Assembly (NCBI RefSeq): GCF_030816965.1 | Contig: NZ_JAUSYQ010000002.1 | Location: forward strand, 3,071,001 to 3,135,000 | Direction of reading: 5' to 3' | From: Streptomyces canus | GTDB taxonomy: Bacteria > Actinomycetota > Actinomycetes > Streptomycetales > Streptomycetaceae | DNA: 64,000 bases | Shown: positions 40,329 to 58,811 of the stretch, in pieces | Layout: each line of letters opens with the position of its first letter | Numbering within the stretch: the first letter of the stretch is position 1 | The notes under the pieces: model-generated | What the model was told of the DNA's origin: nothing | What the model saw: the letters and a program-made list of their open reading frames with translations, nothing else | Database searches by the model: none | Made by a program: the position numbers and the translations under genes

Positions 40329-40338
40329 CTTTCCGGTG

Positions 40339-40410
<72 letters not shown>

Positions 40411-44489: not shown

Positions 44490-44871
44490 CAGGCATCTCC
44501 TCGGTGCGAGTACAAAAGGTCTCGAATCCCTAGGTTTTGCCGAGAACGCCACAGACGATGTCCGCTTCCTGCCCGTTCCACGCATCGGACGACAAGAAAG
44601 GGCCGCCCGGCGGAGCACGGGATGCCGGCGGGCCGACACCGGCCGCCGGTGCCCGGCAGTTCCTCAGGCGGGCTGGAGGCCCGGTTCCTGAAGTCGGCCC
44701 GCTCCTGCTTGCGGTCGAGTGTGAACGGATCGCTGGGAATCCTCGCCGCGGTGACCGTGAGAAAGCGGCGCCGCTCGAAGTACCGGGCGGCGGCGAGCAG
44801 TTCGGGATGACACTAATCGAACAAAGATCAGAATTCGGGCACCCAGCCGGGGCGCCGGTTAACCTGTGCTC
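44490..44871. other. Intergenic stretch upstream of protease gene
   Basis: No complete gene is seen in these 382 bases. The minus strand near 44670-44815 can be read as RYFERRRFLTVTAARIPSD and PFTLDRKQERADF, which carries a twin-arginine-like RRRFLT core and might be the relic of a Tat-exported protein; it has no start and soon loses any pattern. The right end holds the leaderless promoter of the FmdB gene. Confidence 0.4.
44860..44865 (+). promoter_or_regulatory. Leaderless -10 element of the FmdB-like gene
   Basis: TAACCT ends 6 bp before the ATG at 44872 and no ribosome site is present, the signature of a leaderless actinobacterial promoter (TANNNT about 7 bp before the start codon). Confidence 0.6.
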
Positions 44872-45096
44872 ATGCCTCGCTACGAGTACCGCTGCCGGAC
44901 CTGCGGCGACACCTTCGAACTGAGCCGTCCCATGGCCGAGTCCTCCGCCCCCGCCGACTGCCCGGCGGGCCACGACGACACGGTGAAGCTGCTGTCGACG
45001 GTGGCGGTGGGCGGCTCGGCGTCCGCGTCGGCCCCGGCGCCCCAGGCGGGTGGGGGCGGTGGAGGCGGCTGCTGCGGCGGAGGCTGCTGCGGCTGA
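44872..45096 (+). CDS. FmdB-type zinc ribbon protein
   Basis: A 74-aa protein. Residues 1-35 form a zinc ribbon (PRYEYRCRTCGDTFELSRPM, then CPAGH) as in FmdB/CxxC regulators. The C-terminus is a Gly/Cys-rich tail (GGGGGGGCCGGGCCG) that may bind a second metal. The ATG at 44872 is taken because the message appears leaderless. Role unknown; homologues are linked to formamidase and 5-formyltetrahydrofolate cyclo-ligase loci. Confidence 0.88.
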   Translation: MPRYEYRCRTCGDTFELSRPMAESSAPADCPAGHDDTVKLLSTVAVGGSASASAPAPQAGGGGGGGCCGGGCCG

Positions 45097-45113
45097 CCGC
45101 CGTACGCACCCCT

Positions 45114-45147
45114 CTTCAGGCTGCCTTCAGGTCGGCCTCCCTAGCGT
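45114..45147 (+). promoter_or_regulatory. Direct-repeat operator and leaderless promoter of DedA gene
   Basis: CTTCAGG occurs twice with an 11-bp period (45114-45120 and 45125-45131), followed 10 bp later by the -10 TAGCGT (45142-45147), which ends 6 bp before the ATG. Direct repeats one helical turn apart in place of a -35 box are typical of OmpR-type response-regulator binding and activated promoters. Confidence 0.55.
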
Positions 45148-45153
45148 GTGCCC

Positions 45154-45786
45154 ATGTCAGCCATCGCCTGGGTCAACGGCCTCATGGACACGCTCGGCGC
45201 GCCCGGTGCCGGGATCGCCGTCGCCCTGGAGAACCTCTTCCCGCCGATCCCGAGCGAGGCGATCCTGCCGCTCGCCGGCTTCGCGGCGAGCACCGGCCGG
45301 ATGAGCGTGGTCGCCGTGCTGCTGTGGACGACGGCGGGCTCGGTGATCGGTGCCCTCGCGCTCTACGGCGTCGGCGCGCTCCTCGGCCGGGACCGCACGG
45401 TGGCGCTCGCGGCCCGGCTGCCCCTCGTCAAGGTCTCGGACATCGAGAGGACCGAGGCCTGGTTCCTGCGCCACGGCACCAAGGCGGTGTTCTTCGGCCG
45501 GATGATCCCGGTCTTCCGCAGCCTCGTCTCCGTCCCGGCCGGCGTCGAACGCATGCCGCTGCCCGTGTTCCTGACGCTGACCACCTTGGGCAGCGCCCTG
45601 TGGAACACGGCGTTCGTCCTCGCGGGCCACGCCCTGGGCGCCAACTGGACCCAGGTCACCGACGTGGTGTCCGCGTACTCGAAGGTCGTCCTCGCGCTCG
45701 CCGCGCTCGCGGTCGTGGCCTTCGTCGCCGTACGACTGCTGCGGCGAGGCCGGCCGAGTCCTACTGAGGTGTCCGAGCCGTCCTGA
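45154..45786 (+). CDS. DedA-family membrane protein
   Basis: A 210-aa DedA protein with the complete family pattern: VALENLFPPIPSEAILPLAGFAAS (conserved Glu and Pro before the first re-entrant helix), GSVIGALALYGVGALLGRDR and the F-x-R-x(3)-P-x-x-R motif FFGRMIPVFRSLVSVPAGVERM. These proteins flip lipid carriers such as undecaprenyl phosphate and affect envelope integrity and peptide-antibiotic tolerance. A leaderless promoter with an OmpR-like direct repeat lies upstream. Its 3' end overlaps the convergent HAD gene by 26 bp. Confidence 0.92.
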   Translation: MSAIAWVNGLMDTLGAPGAGIAVALENLFPPIPSEAILPLAGFAASTGRMSVVAVLLWTTAGSVIGALALYGVGALLGRDRTVALAARLPLVKVSDIERTEAWFLRHGTKAVFFGRMIPVFRSLVSVPAGVERMPLPVFLTLTTLGSALWNTAFVLAGHALGANWTQVTDVVSAYSKVVLALAALAVVAFVAVRLLRRGRPSPTEVSEPS

Positions 45787-46585
45787 GGAACTCGCGCAGG
45801 ATCCGCTCCCCCGCCGCGACACCCCGCTCCGGCAGCGCGGTGATCGCCGGAGCCGTCCAGCCCACGTCCGCCAGCTCCCCGTGTCCGGGCCGCCAGCCCC
45901 GGTCGGCCGCGAGGAGCAGGTCGGCGTCCAGCAGGGAGTCACCCGCGGCCAGCGTCACGCAGGCCCCGGTGCGCCGGGCCACCTCGCGCATGGCCGCGCT
46001 CTTGGTGAGCGGCTTGGGGACGGCGTAGATCTTGCGGCCCTGGAGGGAGACCGTCCAGCCGCGGTTCTCGGCCCACACCGCGAGCTCCTTCACCCAGTCC
46101 TCGGGCAGCAGTTCACGCTCGACGACGAGGTAGACGAAGAGATCCTCGGCGATCCGGTGCTTGCGCACCCACAGGGGATCGGCCGTCTCCTGGAGGTGCG
46201 CGCGGATCTCCTCGAGAGGTGCGCACTCGTCGGCGAGGCGGGCCGTGACGCGGGTGTGCCAGTCGAGGTCGGTGACGCCGTCGACCAGCAGGTGGCCGCC
46301 GTTCGCGCAGATCGCGTAAGTGGGCGCGGGGCCCGGCAGGTTGATGCGCTGGTACTGCTTGCGGGTGCGGGTCGTCGTCGGCACGAAGACCGCCGTGTCC
46401 CCGAGCTCGGAGAGCAGCCCGGCCGCGGTCTCCGTCATGTACGACAGCGGCCTGCTCTCGTGCACCTCGACGCAGAGCAGCCTCGGCGCCCGCGCGTCCG
46501 GCATGGTGAGCGCCAGGGCGGCGGCGGAGTAGATGAGCGTACGGTCGAGGTCGCTCGCCACGAGCACCGGAGGCTGCGTCGGCAT
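45761..46585 (-). CDS. HAD-superfamily phosphatase of the Ter biosynthetic operon
   Basis: A 274-aa Cof/sucrose-phosphatase-type HAD enzyme: motif I LVASDLDRTLIYSAAAL, motif II VPTTTRTRKQYQRI, motif III Lys in PKPLTKSAAMREV and motif IV TLAAGDSLLDADLLLAAD. The start codon overlaps the stop of the double phosphoribosyltransferase gene (TGATG). HAD phosphatases are fixed members of the Ter-linked operon predicted to make a nucleoside-like metabolite, where this enzyme would dephosphorylate the product. Confidence 0.88.
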   Translation of the reverse strand: MPTQPPVLVASDLDRTLIYSAAALALTMPDARAPRLLCVEVHESRPLSYMTETAAGLLSELGDTAVFVPTTTRTRKQYQRINLPGPAPTYAICANGGHLLVDGVTDLDWHTRVTARLADECAPLEEIRAHLQETADPLWVRKHRIAEDLFVYLVVERELLPEDWVKELAVWAENRGWTVSLQGRKIYAVPKPLTKSAAMREVARRTGACVTLAAGDSLLDADLLLAADRGWRPGHGELADVGWTAPAITALPERGVAAGERILREFLRTARTPQ

Positions 46586-49083
46586 CAGAGGGTCACCGCC
46601 CTGCCGTCGGCGCCCGTCGCGCCCCGCGTGTACTTGGGGTGGATCAACCCCACGCAGGTGTACGGGAGTTCGGCGACCTCTTCCACCGGGACACCTCTCT
46701 GCTCGGCCAACAGGCGTACGTGGTCCAGGTCGGCGCCCGCACCGGCCCGCGCCAGGATCTTCCAGGGCACCCGGCGCAGCAGCACCCGGGTGGTCTCGCC
46801 GACGCCCGGCTTGACGAGGTTGACGTCGTGGATGCCGTACTCCTCACTGATGCGTTCGACGGCCGCCCAGCCCTCCCAGGTGGGCTCCCGGTCGCCGGCG
46901 AGGAGCTCCTTGACCTGTGCGCCGACCGCCTCGGCGACCTCGGGGAAGCGGGCGGCGACGGCGTCCAGGAATTCCACCGACATATCCGCGCCGGCGAGTT
47001 CGCGATAGAACTTCGCGCCGTGGAAGTCGTCCGGGCCGACCAGGTCCGCACGCAGGACCGTGCGCGAAATCAGGCCGGACACCGTGGAGTTGAGACACGC
47101 GGAGGGGATGAGGAAGTCCTCGCGGGTGCCGTACGTCTTCACGCACGAGCCCGGGTCGGCGAGTACGGCGATCTCCGGGTCGAACCCGACGGGACCACCC
47201 TCGGCCTCGAACTGCTTTATCGCTTCCGCCAGTTCACGCGTGATCGCGCCCTTGCCGGTCCAGCCGTCGACGAACACGACGTCAGCGGGGTCGTGGTGGC
47301 CGGCCAGCCAGCGCAGGGCGTTGGCGTCGATGCCGCGGCCCCGGACGATCGAGACCGCGTAGTGCGGCAGTTCGAGGCCGTGGCGGAACTGGGCCCAGCG
47401 GCGCATCAGGACGCCGACGGGGGTGCCGGCGCGGGCGAGGGAGACCAGGACGGGGCGGGGCGAGCGCTCCTGGAGCACGATCTCCGTCACCGCGCCGACC
47501 GCCTGGGCGAGCCTCGCGGAGGACTCCTGGAGGGCCGTCCGGAACAGCTCCTGGTACTGGTCGCTCGGCTGGTACTCCACCGGCAGCGATTCCGCGTAGT
47601 GCGCGCCACCGCTCTGGATGGCCTCCTCGCGCTCCTCGGTCGGCGCCTCCAGCGTGACGTCCGAGAGGTCCTGGAGCAGCCAGCCGACCTCCTCGGGGGC
47701 GTACGAGGAGAAGGCGGGGCCGCGGAGGGGCTCGGAGAGCATGGGGGGCCTTTCGGGGGTGTAGCTGGGGACGACGGTGAGGACGACCTGCCGGGTGTGC
47801 GCGGCGAGTTGGGCCAGGAGGCCGTCGGGGGCGTGCAGTTCGGGGGTGTCGGCGGTGTCGTCGACGACGGCGATCACGGTGTCGAAACCTGCTCCGGCGA
47901 CGTTGTACGCGTAGCGGTCGCCGGGGCCGTCCGCCGGGGTGTCGTGGGCCGGGAAGACGAGGCGGGTGCGGATGGCGTAACCGGGGTCGTCCACGGCCAG
48001 GACGGGTGAGCGGGTGGTCGTGGAGTAGGTCACCTCCACACCTTCAGCGACCTGTTCGAGTTCGCGGGCGAATCTCAGGGGGGCGTACATCAGCTCTTCG
48101 AAGCCGAGGACGTGTACGCGGCGGGCGTCTGCCGGGAGGGCCTCGGCGAGCCTTGCGGCCATGGCGGGAAGCGCGGACTCCAGGCGTATTCGGTGCGCCG
48201 GAGTGAAACCGTGACGGCCGCCGTCGGGGAGGTCTCGGGGCCACGACAGGTCTATGCGGTTGATTGCCTGGTGCGGGCGGGTGGGGGCTGGTCGCGCCCG
48301 CGCGGCGGTAGCCGCAGATTCAACACAGCCCCGCGCCCCTACGGCACTTTCGTACTCGGCGACCAGATGTTGCCCCTTCTCCAGCACGCCGTCGGGCAGG
48401 CGTACGGTGCCTGAAGCCGCTGCCACCAGGTCCACCCGCGCGTTGATCTCGCCGGCGAAGTCGTCCAGTCGACTCGCATCCTCCTCCGACCGCATGTCCA
48501 CCAGGGCGACCACCACGTACCGGCCCCGCGGATACCGCTCGTGCAGATCCCTGATCGTGTTCAGGACCGTGTTGCCCGTCGAGAACTCGTCGTCGACCAG
48601 CACCAGGGGGCCGTCGCCGGCGAGGAGCGCGGGGTCCTCCGGGAGGAGCAGGTGGGACGTGGCGTGGGAGTGGGACTCCTCGAAGCCGCCCGCGGGGGCC
48701 ACGCCGGGGACCGGGCGGCGGGTGGAGTGGAGGTAGGGGGCGAGAGCGATGCCGTCGGCGACGGAGTGGCCGAGACCTGTCGCCGTCTCCGCGTAGCCGA
48801 GGACGACCGCCCGGGCCGCCTCCTCGTCGCCCAGCAGGTCCCGGACCCTGCGGCCCAGCGCGAAGCCCTGTCCGTAGACCACCGACGGCGACTGCGGGAC
48901 GTGCTTGCCCAGCACGTTGGAGACCAGCAGATGGGCCCGCTTGGGGTTGCGGCGCAGCGCCAGTCCCAGCAGGTCGGTCAGCCGGCTGTCGCCCACGAGT
49001 TCGACGCCGAGCCGGTCGGCGACCCACGTCCCCGACCAGACCTGGTCGTTCACTGCCTTGTTCATGCGTCCCTTGGTGTTCAC
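46585..49083 (-). CDS. Fused double phosphoribosyltransferase (PRTase-TRSP-StiP-like-PELOTA)
   Basis: An 832-aa multidomain protein. Residues 25-240 are a PRTase_2-type phosphoribosyltransferase with PRPP loop PLVLVDDEFSTGNTVLNT (159-176). Residues 285-450 are the TRSP domain, named for the motif seen in YSTTTRSPVLAVDDPG (357-360). Residues 500-700 are a second PRTase_1/StiP-type domain with PRPP-like loop DVVFVDGWTGKGAITREL. Residues 740-815 resemble the PELOTA RNA-binding fold. In other bacteria these pairs are usually two genes. Residues 246-275 are encoded by an interspersed repeat (48260-48347). It lies between the lyase and HAD genes in the Ter operon and probably joins PRPP to a base. 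Confidence 0.8.
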   Translation of the reverse strand: MNTKGRMNKAVNDQVWSGTWVADRLGVELVGDSRLTDLLGLALRRNPKRAHLLVSNVLGKHVPQSPSVVYGQGFALGRRVRDLLGDEEAARAVVLGYAETATGLGHSVADGIALAPYLHSTRRPVPGVAPAGGFEESHSHATSHLLLPEDPALLAGDGPLVLVDDEFSTGNTVLNTIRDLHERYPRGRYVVVALVDMRSEEDASRLDDFAGEINARVDLVAAASGTVRLPDGVLEKGQHLVAEYESAVGARGCVESAATAARARPAPTRPHQAINRIDLSWPRDLPDGGRHGFTPAHRIRLESALPAMAARLAEALPADARRVHVLGFEELMYAPLRFARELEQVAEGVEVTYSTTTRSPVLAVDDPGYAIRTRLVFPAHDTPADGPGDRYAYNVAGAGFDTVIAVVDDTADTPELHAPDGLLAQLAAHTRQVVLTVVPSYTPERPPMLSEPLRGPAFSSYAPEEVGWLLQDLSDVTLEAPTEEREEAIQSGGAHYAESLPVEYQPSDQYQELFRTALQESSARLAQAVGAVTEIVLQERSPRPVLVSLARAGTPVGVLMRRWAQFRHGLELPHYAVSIVRGRGIDANALRWLAGHHDPADVVFVDGWTGKGAITRELAEAIKQFEAEGGPVGFDPEIAVLADPGSCVKTYGTREDFLIPSACLNSTVSGLISRTVLRADLVGPDDFHGAKFYRELAGADMSVEFLDAVAARFPEVAEAVGAQVKELLAGDREPTWEGWAAVERISEEYGIHDVNLVKPGVGETTRVLLRRVPWKILARAGAGADLDHVRLLAEQRGVPVEEVAELPYTCVGLIHPKYTRGATGADGRAVTL
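48260..48347 (-). repeat. Interspersed repeat inserted in frame in a coding sequence
   Basis: On the minus strand the segment contains GTAGGGGCGCGGGGCTGTG, CGGCTACCGCCGCGCGGGCG and GCGACCAGCCCCCACCC. These are the hallmarks of the GC-rich interspersed repeat common between streptomycete genes and related to the copies at 30.6-31.1 kb. Here it is read as a low-conservation peptide (SAVGARGCVESAATAARAR) between two domains. Confidence 0.7.
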
Positions 49084-49088
49084 GAATG

Positions 49089-50252
49089 TCAGCCGGAGAT
49101 TCCGGCGGCGAGCAGCTCCACGAAGCCGATGTCCTCGTTGGCCACCCCGAAGACCTCGGCGCGCAGCAGGGTCCGTTCGGCCCAGGCGCGATGCGGCTTC
49201 ACTTCGTTCATTTTGTTCGTGTACTGCGACCTCAGCACCCCGCCGCCGCCGCGCTCGGGCCGCAGGATGTCCTGCGCGTCACTGAACTCCTCGTGGCTGA
49301 CCACGGACAGTGCGTGCACGGGCAGCACGTGGGAGGGGTGGATGCAGGTCTTGCCGAGCAGTCCGTTGGCCTGGTCGAGGGTGATCTCGCGCAGCAGGCC
49401 GTCCATGGCGTGCTCGATGAGCGCCTCGCGCAGTTCCTCGGCCTGTCCCTCCAGGAAGGGGCTACGGCGCAGCTGCGGCTTGAACATGCGCTCCTGGACC
49501 CGGAAGTACTCCCAGACCGGCCCGGTCACGGTGAAGCCGGTGCCGTCGGCGCGGCCCAGCATGTTCACCACGTCGGCGATCACGGAGGCGACGATCTGGA
49601 CGTCCCAGGCGGTCATGTCGGGGGCGCGGCGCAGGCCGTAGGAGGAGCAGAAGTCGGTGACGCCGAGGCGCAGCGCCAGGACCCGGTCGCGGTACTTGTC
49701 GACCGCGCGCGCGATGCCCTCCAGGGTCTCTACGCGCGTCTCGCGGTAGAGCAGCTCCGGAGACTCCAGCACGGGCATGGCGAACAGCCGGTGTCCACTC
49801 GCCACCTCGGCGGCGGAGAGCGCCTCCAGGAAGGGGATGCCGCGTTCCTCGGTGAACTTCGGGAGCACGAATCCGGACAGCAGCCGGACGGCGGGACCGA
49901 GCCGTCGTACGAGATCGGGGATCTGCTCGGGGTGGCGGACCCGGATGAAGAGCAGTGGCAGGTCCACCTGCCGGTCCGCGAGGTCCGTGAACTGCCGGAC
50001 GAGGTTCTCCTCGCCCTCCGCGACGTCGTCGTCACCGATCGAGTCTTCCAGGCACAGCACCATCGAGACCACGCCGCGTCCGGTCTGCTTGACGATGTCG
50101 TCGGCGAGCCGCGGCCGCGTGGCCGGACTGTAGAGCGTGGCGCCCAGAGCCGCGGAGAGCAGCCGGGCCGAGGAATCGGCGGTGAACTCGCAGGGCTCCT
50201 GGTGGAAGAGGCGCTGACGCACCTCAGGGGCGATGTGCCCGAAATGACGCAT
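49089..50252 (-). CDS. HpcH/HpaI aldolase / citrate-lyase-like enzyme of the Ter operon
   Basis: A 387-aa TIM-barrel lyase. CLEDSIGDDDVAEGEENLV gives the acidic metal-binding turn, LFIRVRHPEQIPDL and FVLPKFTEERGIPFLE follow the CitE pattern, MPVLESPELLYRETRVETL has the catalytic Glu region and LGKTCIHPSHVLPVHALSV closes the barrel. The N-terminus (MRHFGHIAPEVRQRLFHQEP) matches Ter-linked members, not CitE itself. It would cleave or form a C-C bond in the predicted nucleoside-like metabolite pathway. ATG 50252 has a GGGGAG site. First gene of a three-gene operon. Confidence 0.85.
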   Translation of the reverse strand: MRHFGHIAPEVRQRLFHQEPCEFTADSSARLLSAALGATLYSPATRPRLADDIVKQTGRGVVSMVLCLEDSIGDDDVAEGEENLVRQFTDLADRQVDLPLLFIRVRHPEQIPDLVRRLGPAVRLLSGFVLPKFTEERGIPFLEALSAAEVASGHRLFAMPVLESPELLYRETRVETLEGIARAVDKYRDRVLALRLGVTDFCSSYGLRRAPDMTAWDVQIVASVIADVVNMLGRADGTGFTVTGPVWEYFRVQERMFKPQLRRSPFLEGQAEELREALIEHAMDGLLREITLDQANGLLGKTCIHPSHVLPVHALSVVSHEEFSDAQDILRPERGGGGVLRSQYTNKMNEVKPHRAWAERTLLRAEVFGVANEDIGFVELLAAGISG

Positions 50253-50274
50253 ATGACTCCCCCGTGACGGCTGT

Positions 50275-50301
50275 GCCGCCTGTGAACCGTTCACAGGTGG
50301 C
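50275..50301. promoter_or_regulatory. 27-bp near-perfect palindrome in Ter divergent promoter
   Basis: The core TGTGAAC-C-GTTCACA (50281-50295) is perfect and the arms extend with GCCGCC / GGTGGC to 13 bp with one mismatch. It lies 22 bp upstream of the lyase start and about 160 bp upstream of the divergent terD start. A one-base centre argues against an RNA hairpin and for a dimeric repressor site. Confidence 0.6.
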
Positions 50302-50458
50302 CGGTAATAGTACGTAGGTACCCATGTCTGAGGTTCCCACCGGGCATGAATTTCAGGTAACGCAGACAAACACGACCTTGTCGACACCGGTACGACATGA
50401 ACCGGTGCCCCGCACCCCCGCGTTGTCGTGACCAGGACCGAGAGGGCAGGATGACCGC

Positions 50459-51256
50459 ATGACGCACGCCATGCTGAAAGGGTCGAACGTCCCGCTGGAA
50501 GCCACCACGGTACGTGCCGTGCTGCGCTGGGCGCCCGGGCAGGGGGTCCCGGTCGTCGATGCCTCGGCGCTCCTCCTCGGCCCCGACGGTCGTGTGCGAT
50601 CCGACGAGGACTTCGTCTTCTACAACCAGCCCCGGCACCCCTCCGGGAAGGTCTGGCTCCTCGGCAAGAAGCGCGTCGCCGAGGGTCCCACCGACACGAT
50701 CCAGACAGATCTGGCCGGTGTCGAGCCCGAGGTCAGCCAGATTCTCCTGGTCGCGTCGGTGGACGAAGCGTCGGTGGACAACGCCACCTTCGGCCGCGTG
50801 CAAGGCCTGCGCATCCTGTTGTACGACGCCTCGGTCGCCGACGGCGAGCCGCTGCTCCACTTCGACATCAAGCCCGAGACGGGCGAGGAGACCGCCCTGA
50901 TCTGCGGCGAGCTGTACCGCCGCGGCGAGGGCTGGAAGTTCCGCGCCCTGGGCGAGGGCTACGCGGAGGGCCTCCAGGGACTGGCCACCGACTTCGGCAT
51001 CGTGGTCGACGAGTCCGACTCCGCGGAGACCCCGTCCCAGCCCGAGGCCACGTCGTTCCCCCTGCCCCCGGAGCAACCGGCCCAGTCGGCCGCCTCGGTC
51101 CCCACGCAGCCGGCCTACGGCTACCCCCAGCAGGCGACTCCGGCGACAGCCCCCGTACCGGCGTCGGGGTACGGCTACCCGCAACCGGTGACTCCGGTAC
51201 CTGCTGCGGCGGAGTTCCGTATGCCTCCCCAGGGGCCGCAGTTCATCGGACGGTAA
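50459..51256 (+). CDS. Atypical TerD-family protein with Pro/Tyr-rich tail
   Basis: A 265-aa protein. Residues 1-190 are a TerD beta-sandwich ([70 protein letters not shown]). The tail of 75 residues is rich in Pro, Gln, Tyr and Gly ([20 protein letters not shown]). The calcium-binding residues of canonical TerD are missing: the DLDAS motif is VVDAS and the [11 protein letters not shown] loop is [13 protein letters not shown]. It may be a non-metal-binding scaffold in the Ter complex. Divergent from the biosynthetic operon. Confidence 0.85.
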
Positions 51257-51262
51257 CGGCCC

Positions 51263-52018
51263 TCACCGGTCCGCCTTCGCCTTGTAACCCCGCCCCCACT
51301 GAAGCCCCCAGCCGTACAGCCGGTCCAGCTCGCCCTGGAACCCGTACACGAACTGCACCTCACGCCGCACGATGAGCTCGCCCTTGACGTTCTCGATCAT
51401 CACCACCGCACAGGACCGGGCCTGAGGGTGCCGCTCGTCGAGACCTATCTCGATCCGCGGCCCATTGCTCGGGTACAGCGTCACGATGGCGTGCGTACGG
51501 TCGAACGCCGGCGTCTGGTCGTAGATGTACACGAAGACCAGCAGCCGCTTGATCTGGTCGCGGTGATCGAGGTTGACGTACATCGTCTCGCCGGACGCCG
51601 ACCCGAACCGGTCGTCCCCGCTGAGTTTCACGTACGGCGGCGCGTTGACGTCCCCCAGCAGGCCGCCGAGCGGCTGGACGACGCCCTTCGTGCCGTCGGC
51701 CAGCTCGTACAGGCACCCCAGGTCGAGGTCGACGTTGACCATGCTCTGGCTGTGCCCGAGGACCTCCGGCGGCTTGAGCGCCTTGAAGGGGTGCCGCAGC
51801 AGCGACTCCCGCTGTGAGCCCCCGATGTCGGAGGTCCGCATCCGCCAGGTCAGGTTGACACGGAGGTTCCCGGTCGCCGCGCCCTGCTTGGTGAGCGAGA
51901 CCCGGTTGTGCCGCTTGGTCAGTTCGATCGCGTTGCTGGCCGCGCTGCCCGAGTCGAAGTCGACCTCGCGGCCGCCCCGGAGTCCGTCCAAGAAGCCCAT
52001 TCCCGCCCCCATGTTCAC
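51263..52018 (-). CDS. TerD/TerA-like tellurium-resistance family protein
   Basis: A 251-aa protein starting MNMGAGMGFLDGLRGGREVD. It has IELTKRHNRVSLTKQGAATGNLRVNLTWRM, then VNVDLDLGCLYELADGTKGVVQPLG, YVKLSGDDRFGSASGETMYVNLDHRDQIKRLLVFVYIYD and TLYPSNGPRIEIGLDERHPQARSCAVVMIENVKGELIVRRE. This is the TerA/TerF-like branch of the TerD fold, with Asp residues in DLDLG and SGDDRFG for metal binding. Several ATGs are possible (52018, 52012, 52000). It follows terC, after a terminator. Confidence 0.78.
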   Translation of the reverse strand: MNMGAGMGFLDGLRGGREVDFDSGSAASNAIELTKRHNRVSLTKQGAATGNLRVNLTWRMRTSDIGGSQRESLLRHPFKALKPPEVLGHSQSMVNVDLDLGCLYELADGTKGVVQPLGGLLGDVNAPPYVKLSGDDRFGSASGETMYVNLDHRDQIKRLLVFVYIYDQTPAFDRTHAIVTLYPSNGPRIEIGLDERHPQARSCAVVMIENVKGELIVRREVQFVYGFQGELDRLYGWGLQWGRGYKAKADR

Positions 52019-52031
52019 TTTGGAGAAACCG

Positions 52032-52060
52032 GCGGGGCGGCCGGAGGCCGGCCGCCCCGC
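52032..52060 (-). terminator. Terminator after terC-like gene
   Basis: Thirteen perfect pairs, GCGGGGCGGCCGG with CCGGCCGCCCCGC, enclose a 3-nt loop in the 69-bp gap between the terC-like stop and the next start on the minus strand. Confidence 0.8.
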
Positions 52061-52087
52061 TCAGAGCGTTCCTCACCAGGAAGGGTG

Positions 52088-53236
52088 TCACACCCCGGAC
52101 GAGACCTCAGTCTTCTCGTCCGAGCCCTCGGCTTTTCCCTCGGCGGCCGCCAGTGCCCTGTTGCGGCGTACGGAGGACAGGAAGGACCAGCCGATCAGGA
52201 GGACACCGACGAGACCGGTGATGATCTCGTGGATCTCGTACTGGATGGTGACCATGAGGATCACCGCGAGGGCGCCGATCGCGTAGTGGGCTCCGTGCTC
52301 CAGGTAGACGTAGTCGTCGAGGGTGCCCTGGCGGACCAGGTACACGGTCAGGGACCGGACGTACATCGCGCCGATGCCGAGGCCCAGCGCCATCAGGACG
52401 ATGTCGTTGGTGATGGCGAACGCGCCGATCACGCCGTCGAACGAGAACGAGGCGTCGAGAACCTCCAGGTAGAGGAACATGAAGAACGCGGCCTTGCCGG
52501 CCATCAGGACCGCCGACTTGGGCTTGCCCTCGCGCTCGGCCTGTTCCTCCTCCTCGTGCTCGCGTTCCTCGTCCTCTTCGAGCTTGTCCTCGAAGTAGCC
52601 GGACAGGCCCCCGACGACCATGTAGGTGATCAGACCCGCGATACCGGAGATCAGGACGGTCTGCGCCTTGTCGACATGCGCGCCGCCGTGCTGGTGGGCG
52701 TGGGTCGCGAAGGTGAACGCGGTGACCAGCAGGACGACCAGCGCGATGCAGACCGACAGCATGTCGACCTTGCCGAGCTTGGCCAGCGGCCGCTCCAGCC
52801 AGGCCAGCCACTTGATGTCCCGGTCCTCGAAGATGAAGTCAAGGAAGATCATCAGCAGGAACATGCCACCGAACGCGGCGATCGCCGGGTGCGCGTCGGT
52901 CACCAGCTCCTGGTAGTGGTCCTTGTTGTTGAGGGCGAGGTCGACCGCCTCGATGGGCCCCATCTTGGCGCTGATCGCGACGATCACGACGGGGAAGACC
53001 AGCCGCATGCCGAACACGGCGATCAGGACACCGACCGTGAGGAAGATGCGCTGCCAGAAGGCGTTCATCTTCTTCAGGATTCCGGCGTTGACCACCGCGT
53101 TGTCGAACGACAGGGAGATCTCGAGGATGGAGAGGATCGCCACGACACCGAAGCCCTCCCACCCCCCGTAGAGGACCGCAGCGACCAAGCCGAGCGCGGT
53201 GACCGCGAACGACCAGCCGAAGGTTTTGAGAACCAC
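52088..53236 (-). CDS. TerC-superfamily (DUF475) membrane protein
   Basis: A 382-aa polytopic protein. The TerC signatures occur twice: ILEISLSFDNAVVNAGILKKM near residue 40 and LEVLDASFSFDGVIGAFAITNDI near residue 250; the Asp in each S-F-D motif is the likely metal site. A highly charged cytoplasmic loop (KLEEDEEREHEEEEQAEREGKP) and a His cluster (THAHQHGGAH) are notable. TerC proteins export Mn2+ or support Ter complexes at the membrane. It begins MVLKTFGWSFAVTALGLV at 53236. Confidence 0.9.
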   Translation of the reverse strand: MVLKTFGWSFAVTALGLVAAVLYGGWEGFGVVAILSILEISLSFDNAVVNAGILKKMNAFWQRIFLTVGVLIAVFGMRLVFPVVIVAISAKMGPIEAVDLALNNKDHYQELVTDAHPAIAAFGGMFLLMIFLDFIFEDRDIKWLAWLERPLAKLGKVDMLSVCIALVVLLVTAFTFATHAHQHGGAHVDKAQTVLISGIAGLITYMVVGGLSGYFEDKLEEDEEREHEEEEQAEREGKPKSAVLMAGKAAFFMFLYLEVLDASFSFDGVIGAFAITNDIVLMALGLGIGAMYVRSLTVYLVRQGTLDDYVYLEHGAHYAIGALAVILMVTIQYEIHEIITGLVGVLLIGWSFLSSVRRNRALAAAEGKAEGSDEKTEVSSGV

Positions 53237-53361
53237 TGGCTACCCAATCCGTACGTGTACGGGATTCCCCCGTGCCGCACTCGGCTTTACGAAACTTTGA
53301 AGCGAAGTGTAGTCGGGCGCCCTCGAGGCCCCACCCTGCCCCGGCTTTTGCTCATATCGCG

Positions 53362-53937
53362 TTACGAGACGTTGACTCCGAAGTCGAGAGCGATGCCCCT
53401 GAGGCCCGACGCGTACCCCTGCCCCACCGCCCTGAACTTCCACTCGCCCTGGTAGCGGTAGAGCTCGCCGAAGATCATCGCGGTCTCGGTGGAGGCGTCC
53501 TCGGAGAGGTCGTAGCGGGCCAGTTCCTGGCCGTCGGCCTGGTTGACCACACGGATGAAGGCGTTGCTGACCTGGCCGAAGGTCTGGCCGCGGTTGTCGG
53601 CGTCATGAATCGACACCGGGAAGACGATCTTGTCGCACCGGTCCGGCACCTTGGAGAGGTCGACCAGGATCGACTCGTCGTCGCCCTCGCCCTCACCGGT
53701 GAGGTTGTCGCCGGTGTGCTCGACCGAGCCGTCCGGGCTCTTGAGCTGGTTGTAGAAGACGAAGTACTCGTCACCCAGGACCCGCCCGTTGCTGCACATC
53801 AGGGCGCTGGCGTCGAGGTCGAAGTCGGCTCCGGTGGTGGAGCGCGCGTCCCAGCCGAGTCCGACCATCACCTGGGTGAGGTTGGGGGCGGCCTTGGACA
53901 GGGAGACGTTCCCTCCCTTGGCGAGCGTGACGCCCAT
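53362..53937 (-). CDS. terD: TerD-family calcium-binding stress protein
   Basis: A 191-aa canonical TerD. The metal-binding residues are all present: [20 protein letters not shown] and [19 protein letters not shown], then [34 protein letters not shown] and [17 protein letters not shown]. TerD proteins bind Ca2+, sit under the membrane with TerC and respond to tellurite and other stresses. ATG 53937 has a GGGGAGGGAAC site. A close paralogue lies 125 bp upstream. Confidence 0.95.
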
Positions 53938-53982
53938 GTGCTGTTCCCTCCCCGAGAGTGTGCTTCTGTGCTTGTCCTGCAC

Positions 53983-54017
53983 GTCCGGCGCCGCACGCAA
54001 ACGGTGCGGCGCCGGAC
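53983..54017 (-). terminator. Hairpin between tandem terD genes
   Basis: Fourteen perfect pairs, GTCCGGCGCCGCAC with GTGCGGCGCCGGAC, have a 7-nt loop. It lies between the two terD genes and may terminate or attenuate read-through so that the second is transcribed less. Confidence 0.7.
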
Positions 54018-54062
54018 GAAGAGAGCCGGGGCCGGTCCGAGGGCCTGCCCATGGGACAGGTA

Positions 54063-54638
54063 CTAGACGTTGACGCCGAAGTCCTGGGCGATCCCGCGCA
54101 GACCCGAGGCGTAGCCCTGGCCGATGGCGCGGAACTTCCACTCGGCGCCGTTGCGGTAGAGCTCGCCGAAGACCATGGCGGTCTCGGTGGAGGCGTCCTC
54201 GGAGAGGTCGTAGCGGGCGATCTCCGCCTCGCCGGCCTGGTTCACGACGCGGATGAACGCGTTGCGCACCTGGCCGAAGGACTGCTGGCGGTTCTCGGCG
54301 TCGTAGATCGAGACCGGGAAGACGATCTTGTCGACGTCGGCCGGGACCGCGGCGAGGTTGACCTTGATCTGCTCGTCGTCGCCCTCGCCCTCACCGGTGA
54401 TGTTGTCGCCGGTGTGCTCGACGGAGCCGTCCGCGCTCTTGAGGTTGTTGAAGAAGACGAAGTTGGCGTCGCTGGCGACCTTGCCTGCCGAGTTCAGCAG
54501 CAGTGCGCTGGCGTCCAGGTCGAAGTCGGTGCCGGTCGTGGTGCGGACGTCCCACCCCAGACCGACGATGACCGCGGTCAGGCCCGGGGCCTCCTTGGTC
54601 AGCGATACGTTGCCGCCCTTGCTGAGGCTGACTCCCAC
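54063..54638 (-). CDS. terD: TerD-family calcium-binding stress protein
   Basis: A 191-aa canonical TerD, clearly a close paralogue of the next gene (long identical runs such as [12 protein letters not shown] and [14 protein letters not shown]). Residues [20 protein letters not shown] open it, [21 protein letters not shown] and [20 protein letters not shown] supply metal ligands and [20 protein letters not shown] ends it. The GTG start at 54638 is decided by a TATGGAGGACTC ribosome site; the longer frame is upstream DNA. It follows ahpE divergently from aceE further on. Confidence 0.95.
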
Positions 54639-54734
54639 GAGTCCTCCATAGGTTTGCTGGTTGTGATGCTGCCGGATCAACGATTCGATCCTAGTGACGG
54701 GTTCCCGAACCACGCAGTCCCTGGAGGCGGACAA

Positions 54735-55193
54735 TCACAGGGTGTCGAGCGCCTTGACGTACTCGTTCAGGTCACGGGCGTCCGGCAGGGCGTTGACGAC
54801 GGTCCAGCGGACCACGCCCTCCTTGTCGATGACGAAGGTGCCGCGCACCGCGCAGCCCTTGTCCTCGGCGAAGACACCGTAGGCGCGGGAGACCTCGCCG
54901 TGCGGCCAGAAGTCGCTCAGCAGCGGATACTCCAGGCTCTCCTGCTCGGCGAAGACGCGCAGGGTGTGGATGGAGTCGTTGGAGACGGCGAGCAGCTGGG
55001 TGTCGCGGTCGGAGAACTGCGGCAGGTTGTCACGCAGTTCGCACAGCTCACCGGTGCACACGCCGGTGAAGGCGAAGGGGTAGAAGAGCAGCACGACGTT
55101 CTTGCTGCCGCGGAAGTCGGACAGCTTCACGGCCCGGCCGTGGTTGTCCTTGAGCTCGAAGTCGGGGGCCTTTTCGCCGACCTGGATCGCCAT
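54735..55193 (-). CDS. ahpE: AhpE-type one-cysteine peroxiredoxin
   Basis: A 152-aa thioredoxin-fold peroxidase. The peroxidatic Cys is in [17 protein letters not shown] (residue 46), with Thr in the P-x(3)-T-x-x-C pattern and Arg in [17 protein letters not shown]. It reduces hydroperoxides in the cytoplasm. The extra Cys at 51 is conserved in AhpE relatives and could be a resolving residue. Order terD-ahpE-DUF3052-aceE places an oxidative-stress enzyme next to Ter and pyruvate dehydrogenase genes. Confidence 0.9.
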
Positions 55194-55303
55194 CGCGTGG
55201 ATGTCCCTTCGGGAGGCTGTTCGAGTGACGCAGCCACCCTACGCAGCGATCATCACGGGTATGCGGACGGGCCGGTCACGCCGGCCCGTCCGGTCCCACA
55301 GGG

Positions 55304-55735
55304 CTACTTCTTGGACTTGGCCGCCTTGGGCGTCACCAGCCGGCTGCCGCTCCAGTCCTTGCCCACACTGACGCTCTTGGAGGCGGACAGGCCTGCCGTC
55401 GTCGCGGCTTCGGAGATGTCGCTCGGCTCCACGTAGCCGTCCCGGCCGGTCTTCGGCGTCAGCAGCAGGATCGAGCCGCCCTCCTCGATGTACGTGGTGG
55501 CGTCCACCAGCACATCGGTCAGGTCGCCGTCCTCGTCACGGAACCAGAGCACCACGGCATCGGCGACGTCGTCGTAATCCTCGTCCACAAGGTCGCTGCC
55601 GATGACTTGCTCGATGGCCTCGCGGAGTTCCTGGTCTACGTCGTCGTCGTAGCCGATCTCCTGGACCACCTGCTCGGGCTGGAACCCCAGCCTCACGGCA
55701 GGGCTCGTCTCCGCGTGGTCCGCGGTCGCGCTCAC
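55304..55735 (-). CDS. DUF3052 protein
   Basis: A 143-aa acidic soluble protein. Its family pattern is LGFQPEQVVQEIGYDDDVDQELREAIE, DEDYDDVADAVVLWFRDEDGDLTDVLVDA and ILLLTPKTGRDGYVEPSDISEAATTAGL. DUF3052 genes sit beside aceE across actinobacteria, which suggests a link to pyruvate dehydrogenase, but no activity is known. GTG 55735 follows AGGAGGCAACCC; the longer start is weaker. Confidence 0.9.
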   Translation of the reverse strand: MSATADHAETSPAVRLGFQPEQVVQEIGYDDDVDQELREAIEQVIGSDLVDEDYDDVADAVVLWFRDEDGDLTDVLVDATTYIEEGGSILLLTPKTGRDGYVEPSDISEAATTAGLSASKSVSVGKDWSGSRLVTPKAAKSKK

Positions 55736-56078
55736 GGGTTGCCTCCTGATCATGTCTTGATGATTGTCTCAGCCACGCGCGTGCGCGAAGCATTGGCCGT
55801 AGTCCACACGGGCGGGACGGATCGCGCAAGTACCCGGCGTTTCAGACCGCCGAAACGGTGACGTTCCGGAACGTGTCGACGCAACTTAAGGCACATCATC
55901 GCGGTCGCGTCGTGACACATGCCACACCTTTCTGCCCTCTTTGCGTGTTTGGGAACCATACCCGGGCGAGGAACCCCGGGTTACCACGGAGTAGAGATGA
56001 CGTTTGGCCCCCCGAGGTACACGATGGGGAGCGGTGCAGACATACAGAAATACGGCCCTCTGACAGGTAAGGAACAGC
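55736..56078. other. Divergent promoter region of DUF3052 and aceE
   Basis: No gene is visible in these 343 bases. They contain a perfect 14-bp palindrome, ACGTTCCGGAACGT, at 55861-55874, about 205 bp upstream of aceE, and an AT-richer tract (CTCTTTGCGTGTTTGG) near 55936-55951 that could hold the aceE promoter. The aceE start is preceded by GGTAAGGAAC. Confidence 0.5.
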
Positions 56079-58811
56079 GTGGCTTCCGGATCCGATCGCA
56101 ACCCGATCATCATTGGCGGCCTTCCGAGTCAGGTTCCTGACTTCGATCCCGAGGAAACCCAGGAGTGGCTCGACTCCCTCGACGCCGCCGTGGACCAGCG
56201 CGGCCGGGAGCGAGCCCGCTATCTGATGCTGCGGCTCATCGAGCGGGCCCGCGAGAAGCGCGTGGCCGTGCCGGAGATGCGCAGCACGGACTACGTCAAC
56301 ACGATCCCCACCAGGGCGGAGCCGTTCTTCCCGGGCAATGAGGAGATCGAGCGGAAGATCCTGAACGCCACCCGGTGGAACGCGGCCGTGATGGTCTCGC
56401 GTGCCCAGCGTCCCGGTATCGGCGTCGGCGGCCACATCGCCACCTTCGCCTCCTCCGCGTCCCTCTACGACGTCGGCTTCAACCACTTCTTCCGTGGCAA
56501 GGACGAGGGCGACGGCGGCGACCAGGTCTTCTTCCAGGGCCACGCCTCCCCGGGCATCTACGCGCGCGCGTTCCTGCTGGACCGCCTCACCGAGGACAAC
56601 CTCGACGGGTTCCGCCAGGAGAAGTCGAAGGCCCCGCACGGCCTGTCCTCGTACCCGCACCCGCGGCTGATGCCGGACTTCTGGGAGTTCCCGACCGTGT
56701 CGATGGGCCTCGGCCCGATCGGCGCGATCTACCAGGCGCGGATGAACCGTTACATGCAGGCGCGCGAGATCGCCGACACGTCCAAGTCCCATGTCTGGGC
56801 GTTCCTCGGCGACGGTGAGATGGACGAGCCGGAGTCGCTCGGCCAACTGACCATCGCCGCGCGCGAGGGCCTGGACAACCTGACCTTCGTCGTCAACTGC
56901 AACCTCCAGCGCCTCGACGGCCCGGTGCGCGGCAACGGCAAGGTCATCCAGGAGCTGGAGTCGGTCTTCCGGGGCGCCGGCTGGAACGTGATCAAGCTGA
57001 TCTGGGACCGCACCTGGGACCCGCTGCTCGCGCAGGACCGCGACGGCATCCTCGTCAACCGGATGAACACCACCCCGGACGGCCAGTTCCAGACCTACGC
57101 CACCGAGTCCGGCGCCTACATCCGCGATCACTTCTTCGGCGACGACCAGCGCCTGCGCGCGATGGTCGAGGGCATGACCGACGACCAGATCCTGCACCTG
57201 GGCCGCGGCGGTCACGACCACAAGAAGATCTACGCGGCGTTCAAGGCGGCCGTCGAGCACAAGGGCCAGCCGACGGTCATCCTCGCCAAGACCGTCAAGG
57301 GCTGGACGCTGGGACCCAACTTCGAGGGCCGCAACGCCACGCACCAGATGAAGAAGCTGACGGTCGCCGACCTCAAGGGCTTCCGCGACCGGCTGCACCT
57401 GCCGATCTCCGACAAGGAGCTGGAGTCGGGCCCGCCGCCCTACTACCACCCGGGCCGGGACTCGGAGGAGATCCAGTACATGCACGACCGCCGGCTGGGT
57501 CTCGGCGGTTACGTCCCCACGCGAGTCGTGCGCTCCAAGCCGCTCGCGCTGCCGGACGACAAGACGTACGCGACCGTGAAGAAGGGCTCGGGTCAGCAGT
57601 CGATCGCCACGACCATGGCGTTCGTACGACTGCTCAAGGACCTCATGCGGGACAAGGAACTCGGCAAGCGGTTCGTGCTGATCGCGCCGGACGAGTACCG
57701 CACCTTCGGCATGGACTCGTTCTTCCCGAGCGCGAAGATCTACAACCCGCTCGGGCAGCAGTACGAGTCGGTCGACCGTGAACTGCTGCTCGCGTACAAG
57801 GAGTCCCCGACCGGGCAGATGCTGCACGACGGCATCTCGGAGGCGGGCTGCACGGCGTCGCTGATCGCGGCGGGTTCGGCGTACGCCACGCACGGCGAGC
57901 CGCTGATCCCGGTGTACGTCTTCTACTCGATGTTCGGTTTCCAGCGCACCGGTGACCAGTTCTGGCAGATGTCGGACCAGCTGGCGCGCGGTTTCGTGCT
58001 GGGTGCGACCGCGGGCCGTACGACTCTGACCGGTGAGGGGCTGCAGCACGCGGACGGGCACTCGCAGCTGCTCGCCTCGACCAACCCGGGCTGTGTGGCG
58101 TACGACCCGGCGTTCGGGTTCGAGATCGCGCACATCGTGCAGGACGGTCTGCGCCGGATGTACGGCCCGGACAGCGAGGACGTCTTCTACTACCTCACCG
58201 TCTACAACGAGCCCATCCAGCACCCGGCCGAGCCGGAGAACGTCGACGTCGAGGGCATCCTCAAGGGCGTCTACCGCTTCTCCGAGGCCACCTCGGGGTC
58301 GATTCCGGCGCAGATCATGGCGTCGGGTGTGGCCGTGCCCTGGGCGGTCGAGGCGCAGAAGCTCCTCGCCGAGGACTGGAACGTCAAGGCGGACGTCTGG
58401 TCGGCCACCTCCTGGAACGAACTGCGGCGCGAGGCCGTGGCCTGCGAGGAGCACAACCTGCTGCACCCGGAGGAGGAGCAGCGGGTGCCGTACGTGACGC
58501 GGAAGCTGGCCGGGGCGCAGGGGCCGTTCGTGGCGGTGTCCGACTGGATGCGCGCGGTTCCCGACCAGATCGCGCGGTGGGTACCGGGCACGTACCAGTC
58601 GCTGGGAGCGGACGGGTTCGGCTTCGCGGACACCCGGGGTGCGGCGCGGCGGTTCTTCCACATCGACGCCCAGTCGATCGTGGTGGGTGTGCTGACGGAG
58701 CTGGCGCGGGAGGGGAAGGTGGACCGTTCGGTGCTGAAGCAGGCGATCGACCGGTACCAGCTGCTGGACGTCTCGGCGGCGGACCCGGGGGCCGCGGGCG
58801 GCGACGCGTAA
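56079..58811 (+). CDS. aceE: Pyruvate dehydrogenase E1, homodimeric type
   Basis: A 910-aa thiamine-diphosphate enzyme. Residues 1-480 form the TPP-binding half with [24 protein letters not shown] and the GDG-x(n)-NN signature in [11 protein letters not shown]...[14 protein letters not shown], and [25 protein letters not shown]; residues 500-720 are the pyrimidine domain ([27 protein letters not shown]-like [17 protein letters not shown]) and the rest is the transketolase C-domain. It decarboxylates pyruvate and reduces lipoyl-E2. GTG 56079 start. A strong terminator follows. Confidence 0.97.

Follow-up and report, generated by a model that had tools for sequence, protein, structure and literature searches.

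The Ter stress locus considered here lies within a 64-kb stretch (hereafter, the window) of the 10.66-Mb genome of Streptomyces canus (contig NZ_JAUSYQ010000002.1, positions 3,071,001 to 3,135,000), and it is the usual chromosomal Ter locus of Streptomyces, that is, a system of a known kind, real and conserved. Beside its TerD-type genes, the locus carries an operon for a CitE/HpcH-like lyase, a four-domain protein that begins with a phosphoribosyltransferase (PRTase) domain, and a HAD phosphatase. We consider it moderately probable that, through this operon, the Ter locus co-encodes a pathway of ribosylation, dependent on phosphoribosyl pyrophosphate (PRPP), and dephosphorylation that feeds the Ter response. 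The proposal draws on the gene families, their order and conservation, the invariant motifs, the co-distribution of an ATP-grasp ligase and a phosphatase homologue of solved structure, all of which are observed directly.

The pathway itself, with its reactions, substrates, order of steps and link from the product to the TerD/TerC proteins, is one that we infer, and it can be envisaged as follows. A DUF475/TerC membrane protein and cytosolic TerD/TerA proteins would be co-encoded with the enzymes of a ribosyl metabolite. The PRTase_2 domain would transfer 5-phosphoribose from PRPP to an acceptor, with the fused StiP domain serving either as a second PRTase-like site or as a partner of PRTase_2; the CitE-like lyase would supply or trim a carbon-acid unit, and the HAD enzyme would take off the 5'-phosphate. 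Where the genome keeps one, an unlinked ATP-grasp ligase would add a further group, and the product would act as a signal to the TerD/TerC proteins or be used by them. A nucleoside-like metabolite made by the Ter biosynthetic module is a prediction in print, and the module was reportedly defined in a 2012 study. The ribosylation pathway agrees with a published idea (PMC7824862), in which the PRTases and HADs encoded by Ter systems produce a signal that TerB/TerD would sense.

Beyond the initial annotation of this DNA, the analysis recognizes the PRTase as a four-domain fusion in which a second PRTase-like fold is predicted and the tail is of an RNA-binding type; it also adds three leads, namely, a solved relative of the HAD family, a doubtful protease label and an accessory ATP-grasp ligase. 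The PRTase/StiP part is common on enteric plasmids (2,567 plasmid records match the 832-residue query at E <= 1e-5) and occurs in a few phages (4 records). The Streptomyces version is harmless and chromosomal, has one fused enzyme, comes in natural genomes with and without ATP-grasp, and has a solved phosphatase relative; therefore, the identity of the Ter operon product is a directly testable matter.

Order and conservation of the operon

All genes of the operon are on the minus strand. The lyase (C-C_Bond_Lyase, a CitE/HpcH-like TIM barrel; 49089..50252) matches PF15617 with an E value of 3.6e-122; its open reading frame extends to 50387, the likely start being the ATG at 50252, and residues E163 and D200, which we take to be metal ligands, are invariant in all nine sequences aligned. 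The lyase is followed by the fusion PRTase_2-TRSP-StiP-PELOTA_1 (46585..49083) and by the HAD phosphatase of 274 residues (45761..46585), the last gene of the operon. Two tight junctions had been described here: the TGATG overlap between the fusion stop and the HAD start is real (46583-46587), whereas the 5-bp gap between the lyase and the fusion is obtained only if the fusion starts with the GTG at 49083 (832 residues), and it becomes 23 bp with the ATG at 49065 (826 residues). The sequence favors the ATG as the likelier start because AAGGG is found four bases upstream and the closest database homologues are 826 residues long. As had been presumed, the lyase and the PRTase belong to Ter-linked Pfam families, and the HAD is homologous to other ter-operon HADs.

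Among the 42 related actinomycete loci compared, the full order lyase-PRTase_2-StiP-HAD is seen in 39; two of the incomplete loci (L061 and L077) end at contig ends, the third (L079) has no detected HAD, and one of the 39 (L085) has its HAD 2.6 kb off. The anticipated co-occurrence of the operon with terD is borne out: TerD or DUF475 is found within the fetched stretch in 28 of the 42 loci, L085 has a TerA-like gene only, and terD is present in all 13 remaining genomes, in 11 of them on the same contig, ~14-18 kb away, and in two on another contig. A lack of linkage between the operon and terD in family f59, suggested at first by the 13 fetched stretches without TerD or DUF475 matches, is ruled out by these distances, with TerD on the same contig in 11 of 13 genomes. 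Within Streptomyces, the context was counted in the best 80 of 588 relatives, of which 79 are titled Streptomyces and one Actinobacteria bacterium. An identical order of aceE, DUF3052, AhpC, TerD, TerD, DUF475, TerA-like, divergent TerD, lyase, PRTase_2, StiP and HAD was found in 64 of the 80, the other 16 showing shorter stretches of the same context or one extra match. Because it recurs in dozens of genomes, this gene order is not a matter of chance.

The lack of ATP-grasp in many genomes, taken together with L079, where no HAD was found, and the displaced HAD of L085, could be read as a sign that these are relic genes without a joint function. We consider this extremely improbable, given that the order is kept across several actinomycete families and plasmids, that PRTase_2, HAD and StiP adjoin each other in the Acinetobacter phage ME3, that the motifs are invariant (see below), and that some families have PRTase_2 and StiP as a fusion and others as separate genes. 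Specifically, among the genomes sampled from the same genus (a label assigned by the tool), the fusion is whole in 10 of 16 and in two pieces in six, with an internal stop codon in G023; it is in one piece also in several other families. PRTase_2 and StiP are two genes in f59 and in the plasmid loci, and the S. rimosus entry is a separate StiP. The recurrence of the fusion suggests that its PRTase_2 and StiP parts cooperate.

The four-domain fusion

The four domains of the fusion are recognized by Pfam at E values of 2.7e-106 (StiP), 2.4e-67 (PRTase_2), 1.1e-37 (TRSP) and 4.2e-35 (PELOTA_1), and its database homologues are up to 99 % identical, the named ones up to 96 %. The PRTase_2 domain (48409..48972) carries the PRPP motif VDDE..TG, both elements of which are invariant in all eight sequences compared; it matches PyrR-type profiles (best E 4.4e-5), and its predicted fold matches APRT, so that, by motif and predicted fold, it qualifies as a putative type I PRTase. 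The TRSP domain (residues 287-425; 47809..48225) and the StiP domain (residues 459-709; 46957..47709) follow, and the PELOTA_1 domain (residues 736-815; 46639..46878), which also has L7Ae matches and is of an RNA-binding type, forms the tail.

StiP has a single match in the whole genome. A model of the domain was obtained with pLDDT 86.9 and pTM 0.89. With this model, Foldseek found no match at E <= 0.001 in either PDB or BFVD; when Foldseek's list was re-scored with VIA-align, PRTases and L7Ae-type proteins emerged as the fold matches among the entries of that list. These matches include Bcs3 CriT, the ribose-5-phosphate transferase of the Haemophilus influenzae type b (Hib) capsule, PyrR and HGPRT, at 6-19 % identity, a likeness of predicted fold only. 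In the 13 StiP sequences aligned, RAG and DGW-GKG are invariant. Taken together, these results predict a second PRTase-like fold for StiP, followed in the fusion by the L7Ae-like tail.

The Pfam title of PF11202 and the NCBI names present StiP as a cysteine protease, which would make the operon a proteolytic stress unit, and the actinomycete copies examined do contain a cysteine in the motif ACLNST (Cys663 in the 832-residue reading frame of the window). However, the copies from Pseudomonas, Klebsiella, ME3 and the IMG/VR contig L179 are devoid of this cysteine, no Cys column is common to all 13 diverse StiP sequences (the best one is filled in 9 of 13), glycine-rich loops are invariant, and the fold matches on the list consist of PRTases and L7Ae-type proteins. 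Judging from the sequences, the protease label is not supported, and we regard a proteolytic unit as very unlikely. A literature search for the basis of the name "cysteine protease" for StiP did not find it, although one paper uses the phrase, and a search combining PELOTA, StiP and TRSP returned, among the matches listed, unrelated papers only.

If StiP is indeed PRTase-like, a scenario other than a free-nucleoside pathway can be envisaged, although we assign it a low probability: the two PRTase-like domains, together with the kink-turn-type RNA-binding tail, would ribosylate RNA or a sugar-like acceptor, the "trehalose phosphatase"-type HAD would remove the 5'-phosphate, and an unlinked ATP-grasp enzyme would decorate the product in some genomes. 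Should such a tandem of PRTase-like domains exist, the widespread annotation "cysteine protease StiP" would be wrong. In the RNA-directed form of this scenario, the L7Ae-like tail would bring the PRTase-like domains to an RNA that is either phosphoribosylated or regulatory, as with PyrR, a PRTase that binds RNA, and the HAD would remove the phosphate. L7Ae-type folds, however, bind other partners too, no target RNA is known, and Rfam gave no match over 44500-56200 at E <= 1; we deem this form unlikely. A sugar conjugate would be formed by PRPP-dependent O-ribosylation followed by the action of a sugar-phosphate phosphatase, by analogy with CriT/CrpP of the Hib capsule enzyme. Here, the 7 % identity is fold evidence at most, CrpP has a different type of HAD cap, and the PRTase_2 domain resembles, in its predicted fold, APRT, an enzyme that uses a base, so that this form appears improbable.

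The HAD phosphatase and the ATP-grasp ligase

Returning to the PRPP-dependent pathway that feeds the Ter response, its dephosphorylating step would be performed by the HAD enzyme, which has no Pfam match above the cut-off. Its closest solved relatives are 6CJ0/6D3V, a "trehalose phosphatase" (E 2.8e-10), and it is homologous to the HADs in ter operons of Pseudomonas, Klebsiella and Mycobacteriales. In particular, it is 29 % identical over 231 residues to the HAD that sits between the PRTase_2 and StiP genes of the P. citronellolis plasmid pRBL16; this ter-operon protein aligns with 6D3V at 528 bits over 251 residues, with about 92 % identity as counted from the alignment. The extra-chromosomal trehalose-6-phosphate phosphatase (TPP) of P. 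aeruginosa is described in PMC6838324 as susceptible to a TPP inhibitor and as having cysteines 85 and 231. Because the row of 6D3V in our alignment has cysteines exactly at 85 and 231 (the count allows for two leading residues), 6D3V is taken to be this enzyme. Thus, on sequence grounds, the Ter-linked HAD family, with the window HAD in it, includes a protein of solved structure that had been investigated as a trehalose-6-phosphate phosphatase, and the natural substrate may differ. A literature search for trehalose phosphatase together with ter showed no trehalose term among the matches listed (10 of 34), which does not prove absence.

The initial annotation had noted that two usual partners, ATP-grasp and TerB, are absent from the window, and indeed neither ATPgrasp_Ter nor TerB was detected there at E <= 0.001. 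The genome-wide search that it had proposed found both outside the window. An ATPgrasp_Ter gene is located 5.4 Mb away, at C2:8479698-8480075 (120.5 bits), and an unlinked TerB at C2:5246456 (87.7 bits); no further Ter gene was detected within the 20 kb around the former or the 13 kb around the latter. Two weaker ATP-grasp matches (37.3 and 29.1 bits) probably represent ATP-grasp proteins of other kinds, and a second TerB match has 35.9 bits. Of the "reduced or split" locus that had been suggested, only the split version stands: a reduced locus lacking ATP-grasp and TerB is ruled out, both being present elsewhere in the genome.

Among 197 genomes of the class, at E <= 1e-25, the fusion was found in 43 and ATP-grasp in 15, all of them within the 43. 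A larger sample of 394 class genomes, which includes the matches of the first one, was screened at E <= 1e-40 for StiP and E <= 1e-30 for ATP-grasp: StiP was present in 92 and ATP-grasp in 25, of which 24 have StiP, the sole exception (G479) being 63 % complete. Outside the genus, StiP is found in seven of eight genomes with ATP-grasp, as compared to 52 of 354 (Fisher 7e-6, a value that ignores ancestry). Within the genus, all 40 genomes sampled have StiP and 17 have ATP-grasp. The ATP-grasp gene can also reside in a Ter locus: in L076, it is placed between TerD genes, has DUF475 and the TerA-like gene as neighbors, and is close to TelA, and in L087, it is separated from TerD by an AIM24-family gene (L087:9318-10133). 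In ten other ATP-grasp stretches (L004, L088-L092 and L184-L187; two of these, L089 and L187, span just 4-5 kb), our probes found no other Ter gene alongside. From its distribution, the ATP-grasp gene appears to be an accessory that the module can do without.

Several observations weigh against the proposed pathway. To begin with the fusion, its full-length model is middling (pLDDT 73.5, pTM 0.50). The comparison of StiP with the PRTase_2 profile by hhalign gave a probability of only ~1 %, so that the case for StiP as a PRTase is built on fold prediction and motifs rather than on sequence homology. The canonical two-acid PRPP motif is missing from StiP, which has a single invariant Asp in DGW-GKG; hence, StiP is called PRTase-like and not a canonical type I member. 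As for the ligase, ancestry is not accounted for in the Fisher values, the cut-offs were chosen in this analysis, and some of the sampled genomes supplied rows of the profiles A1/A5; moreover, 23 of the 40 same-genus StiP genomes have no ATP-grasp at E <= 1e-30, so that a ligation step cannot be essential. To our knowledge, no metabolite of such a pathway has been identified. Finally, the Klebsiella genes terZ-F alone, without the biosynthetic genes, confer tellurite resistance on E. coli (PMC8115787); on that account, the pathway is not needed for tellurite resistance. A simple role in tellurite resistance is also at odds with the standing of terC and terD as core genes in P. citronellolis (PMC8779313).

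Neighboring genes and related loci

The genes named in the initial annotation, that is, three TerD genes, a TerD/TerA-like gene, a terC/DUF475 gene and the lyase-PRTase-HAD genes, were recovered at their places by Pfam, by profile comparison and, for the HAD, by homology to its solved relatives. TerD domains (PF02342) are found in three genes of the window and DUF475/TerC (PF04332/PF03741) in one; genome-wide, the TerD profile matches 15 stretches, some of which share a frame. Two of the TerD proteins, encoded on the minus strand at 53362..53937 and 54063..54638, retain the acidic motifs in the alignment, whereas the divergent one (50459..51256, plus strand) has partly lost its acidic motif; the latter has a long Pro/Gln-rich C-terminal tail. 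The DUF475/TerC-family membrane protein is encoded at 52088..53236 (minus strand). The TerA-like gene (51263..52018, minus strand) matches Pfam TerD below the threshold (E 0.033) and is recognized as a divergent member of the TerD superfamily by profile-profile comparison (probability 93.8 %, E 1.7e-7). An AhpC/TSA-family peroxiredoxin gene (54735..55193, minus strand), identified by Pfam, is the usual Streptomyces neighbor, as seen in the loci of relatives. PADLOC models of anti-phage defence had no match at E <= 0.001 among the nine proteins searched, and a tRNA-Val gene (anticodon tac; 40338-40410, minus strand) is found ~5 kb off the locus.

The intergenic region between the lyase and the divergent TerD gene (50253..50458) is a likely promoter region; across 91 sequences, conservation reaches 90 % or more in 69 of its 206 columns, 19 of them in one unbroken run. 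Exact copies of its blocks 50299-50317 and 50345-50362 occur, genome-wide, only in this region, the former block having one extra genomic site with 3 mismatches. The conserved fraction of this region, 0.33, compares with 0.52 for TerD3-AhpC, 0.40 for DUF3052/AceE and lower values for the other three intergenic regions; the conservation is notable and not unique, because two of the five other regions are more conserved. In the TerD-AhpC gap (54636-54734), 51 of 99 columns are at least 90 % conserved in Streptomyces.

In S. coelicolor, the terD gene SCO2368 is reportedly tied to calcium and to a DosR-like regulon, and it is a likely candidate counterpart of one of the TerD genes described here. 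For sco2364, a gene that may belong to this locus, Table 1 of PMC3765725 gives an antisense RNA that is conserved among three Streptomyces species. Literature leads for SCO2361-66 could not be tied to the genes of the window, SCO2366 being called FasR in two papers.

By annotation and alignments, the ter loci of Klebsiella (NZ_CP131946) and of the Pseudomonas plasmid pRBL16 contain the same set of ATPgrasp_Ter (a Pfam match), PRTase, HAD, StiP and lyase next to terD/terA/terC. In these plasmid loci, StiP and PRTase_2 are separate, with the HAD between them, and ATP-grasp and TerB are within the locus, whereas the locus of the window has a PRTase-StiP fusion followed by the HAD, with ATP-grasp and TerB at other sites of the genome. 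Mycobacteriales plasmids (P. equi p1-WH99 and M. abscessus pGD25-3) have the same lyase-PRTase-StiP-HAD order, along with TerD, DUF475 and a TerA-like gene, but differ in that the PRTase and StiP are separate, TerB is present, and a gene for a protein of ~395 residues precedes the lyase. This protein (L096:7166-8356 and L097:7259-8443; directly before the lyase, no Pfam match, 38 % mutual identity) is an extra Ter gene product; homologous stretches are found at L188:6549-7715, before the lyase, and at L190:11999-12610, after the HAD and on the opposite strand.

Viral versions are known as well. Acinetobacter phage ME3 has the order PRTase-HAD-StiP, and the IMG/VR contig L178 (5907-11381) shows lyase-PRTase-StiP-HAD, then one further gene, then ATP-grasp; the phage-borne StiP sequences of ME3 and L178 are 31-45 % identical to that of the window. 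Of the three IMG/VR contigs with StiP, two (L178 and L179) contain the module with ATP-grasp. The contig L179 (3789-15316), with a Pseudomonas-like ter locus comprising terA, terB, terC, terD and the ATP-grasp module, could be a misclassified plasmid. The ter biosynthetic operon of pRBL16 includes a gene (L093:7702-8841) that joins a TerD-type domain to a trypsin-like peptidase.
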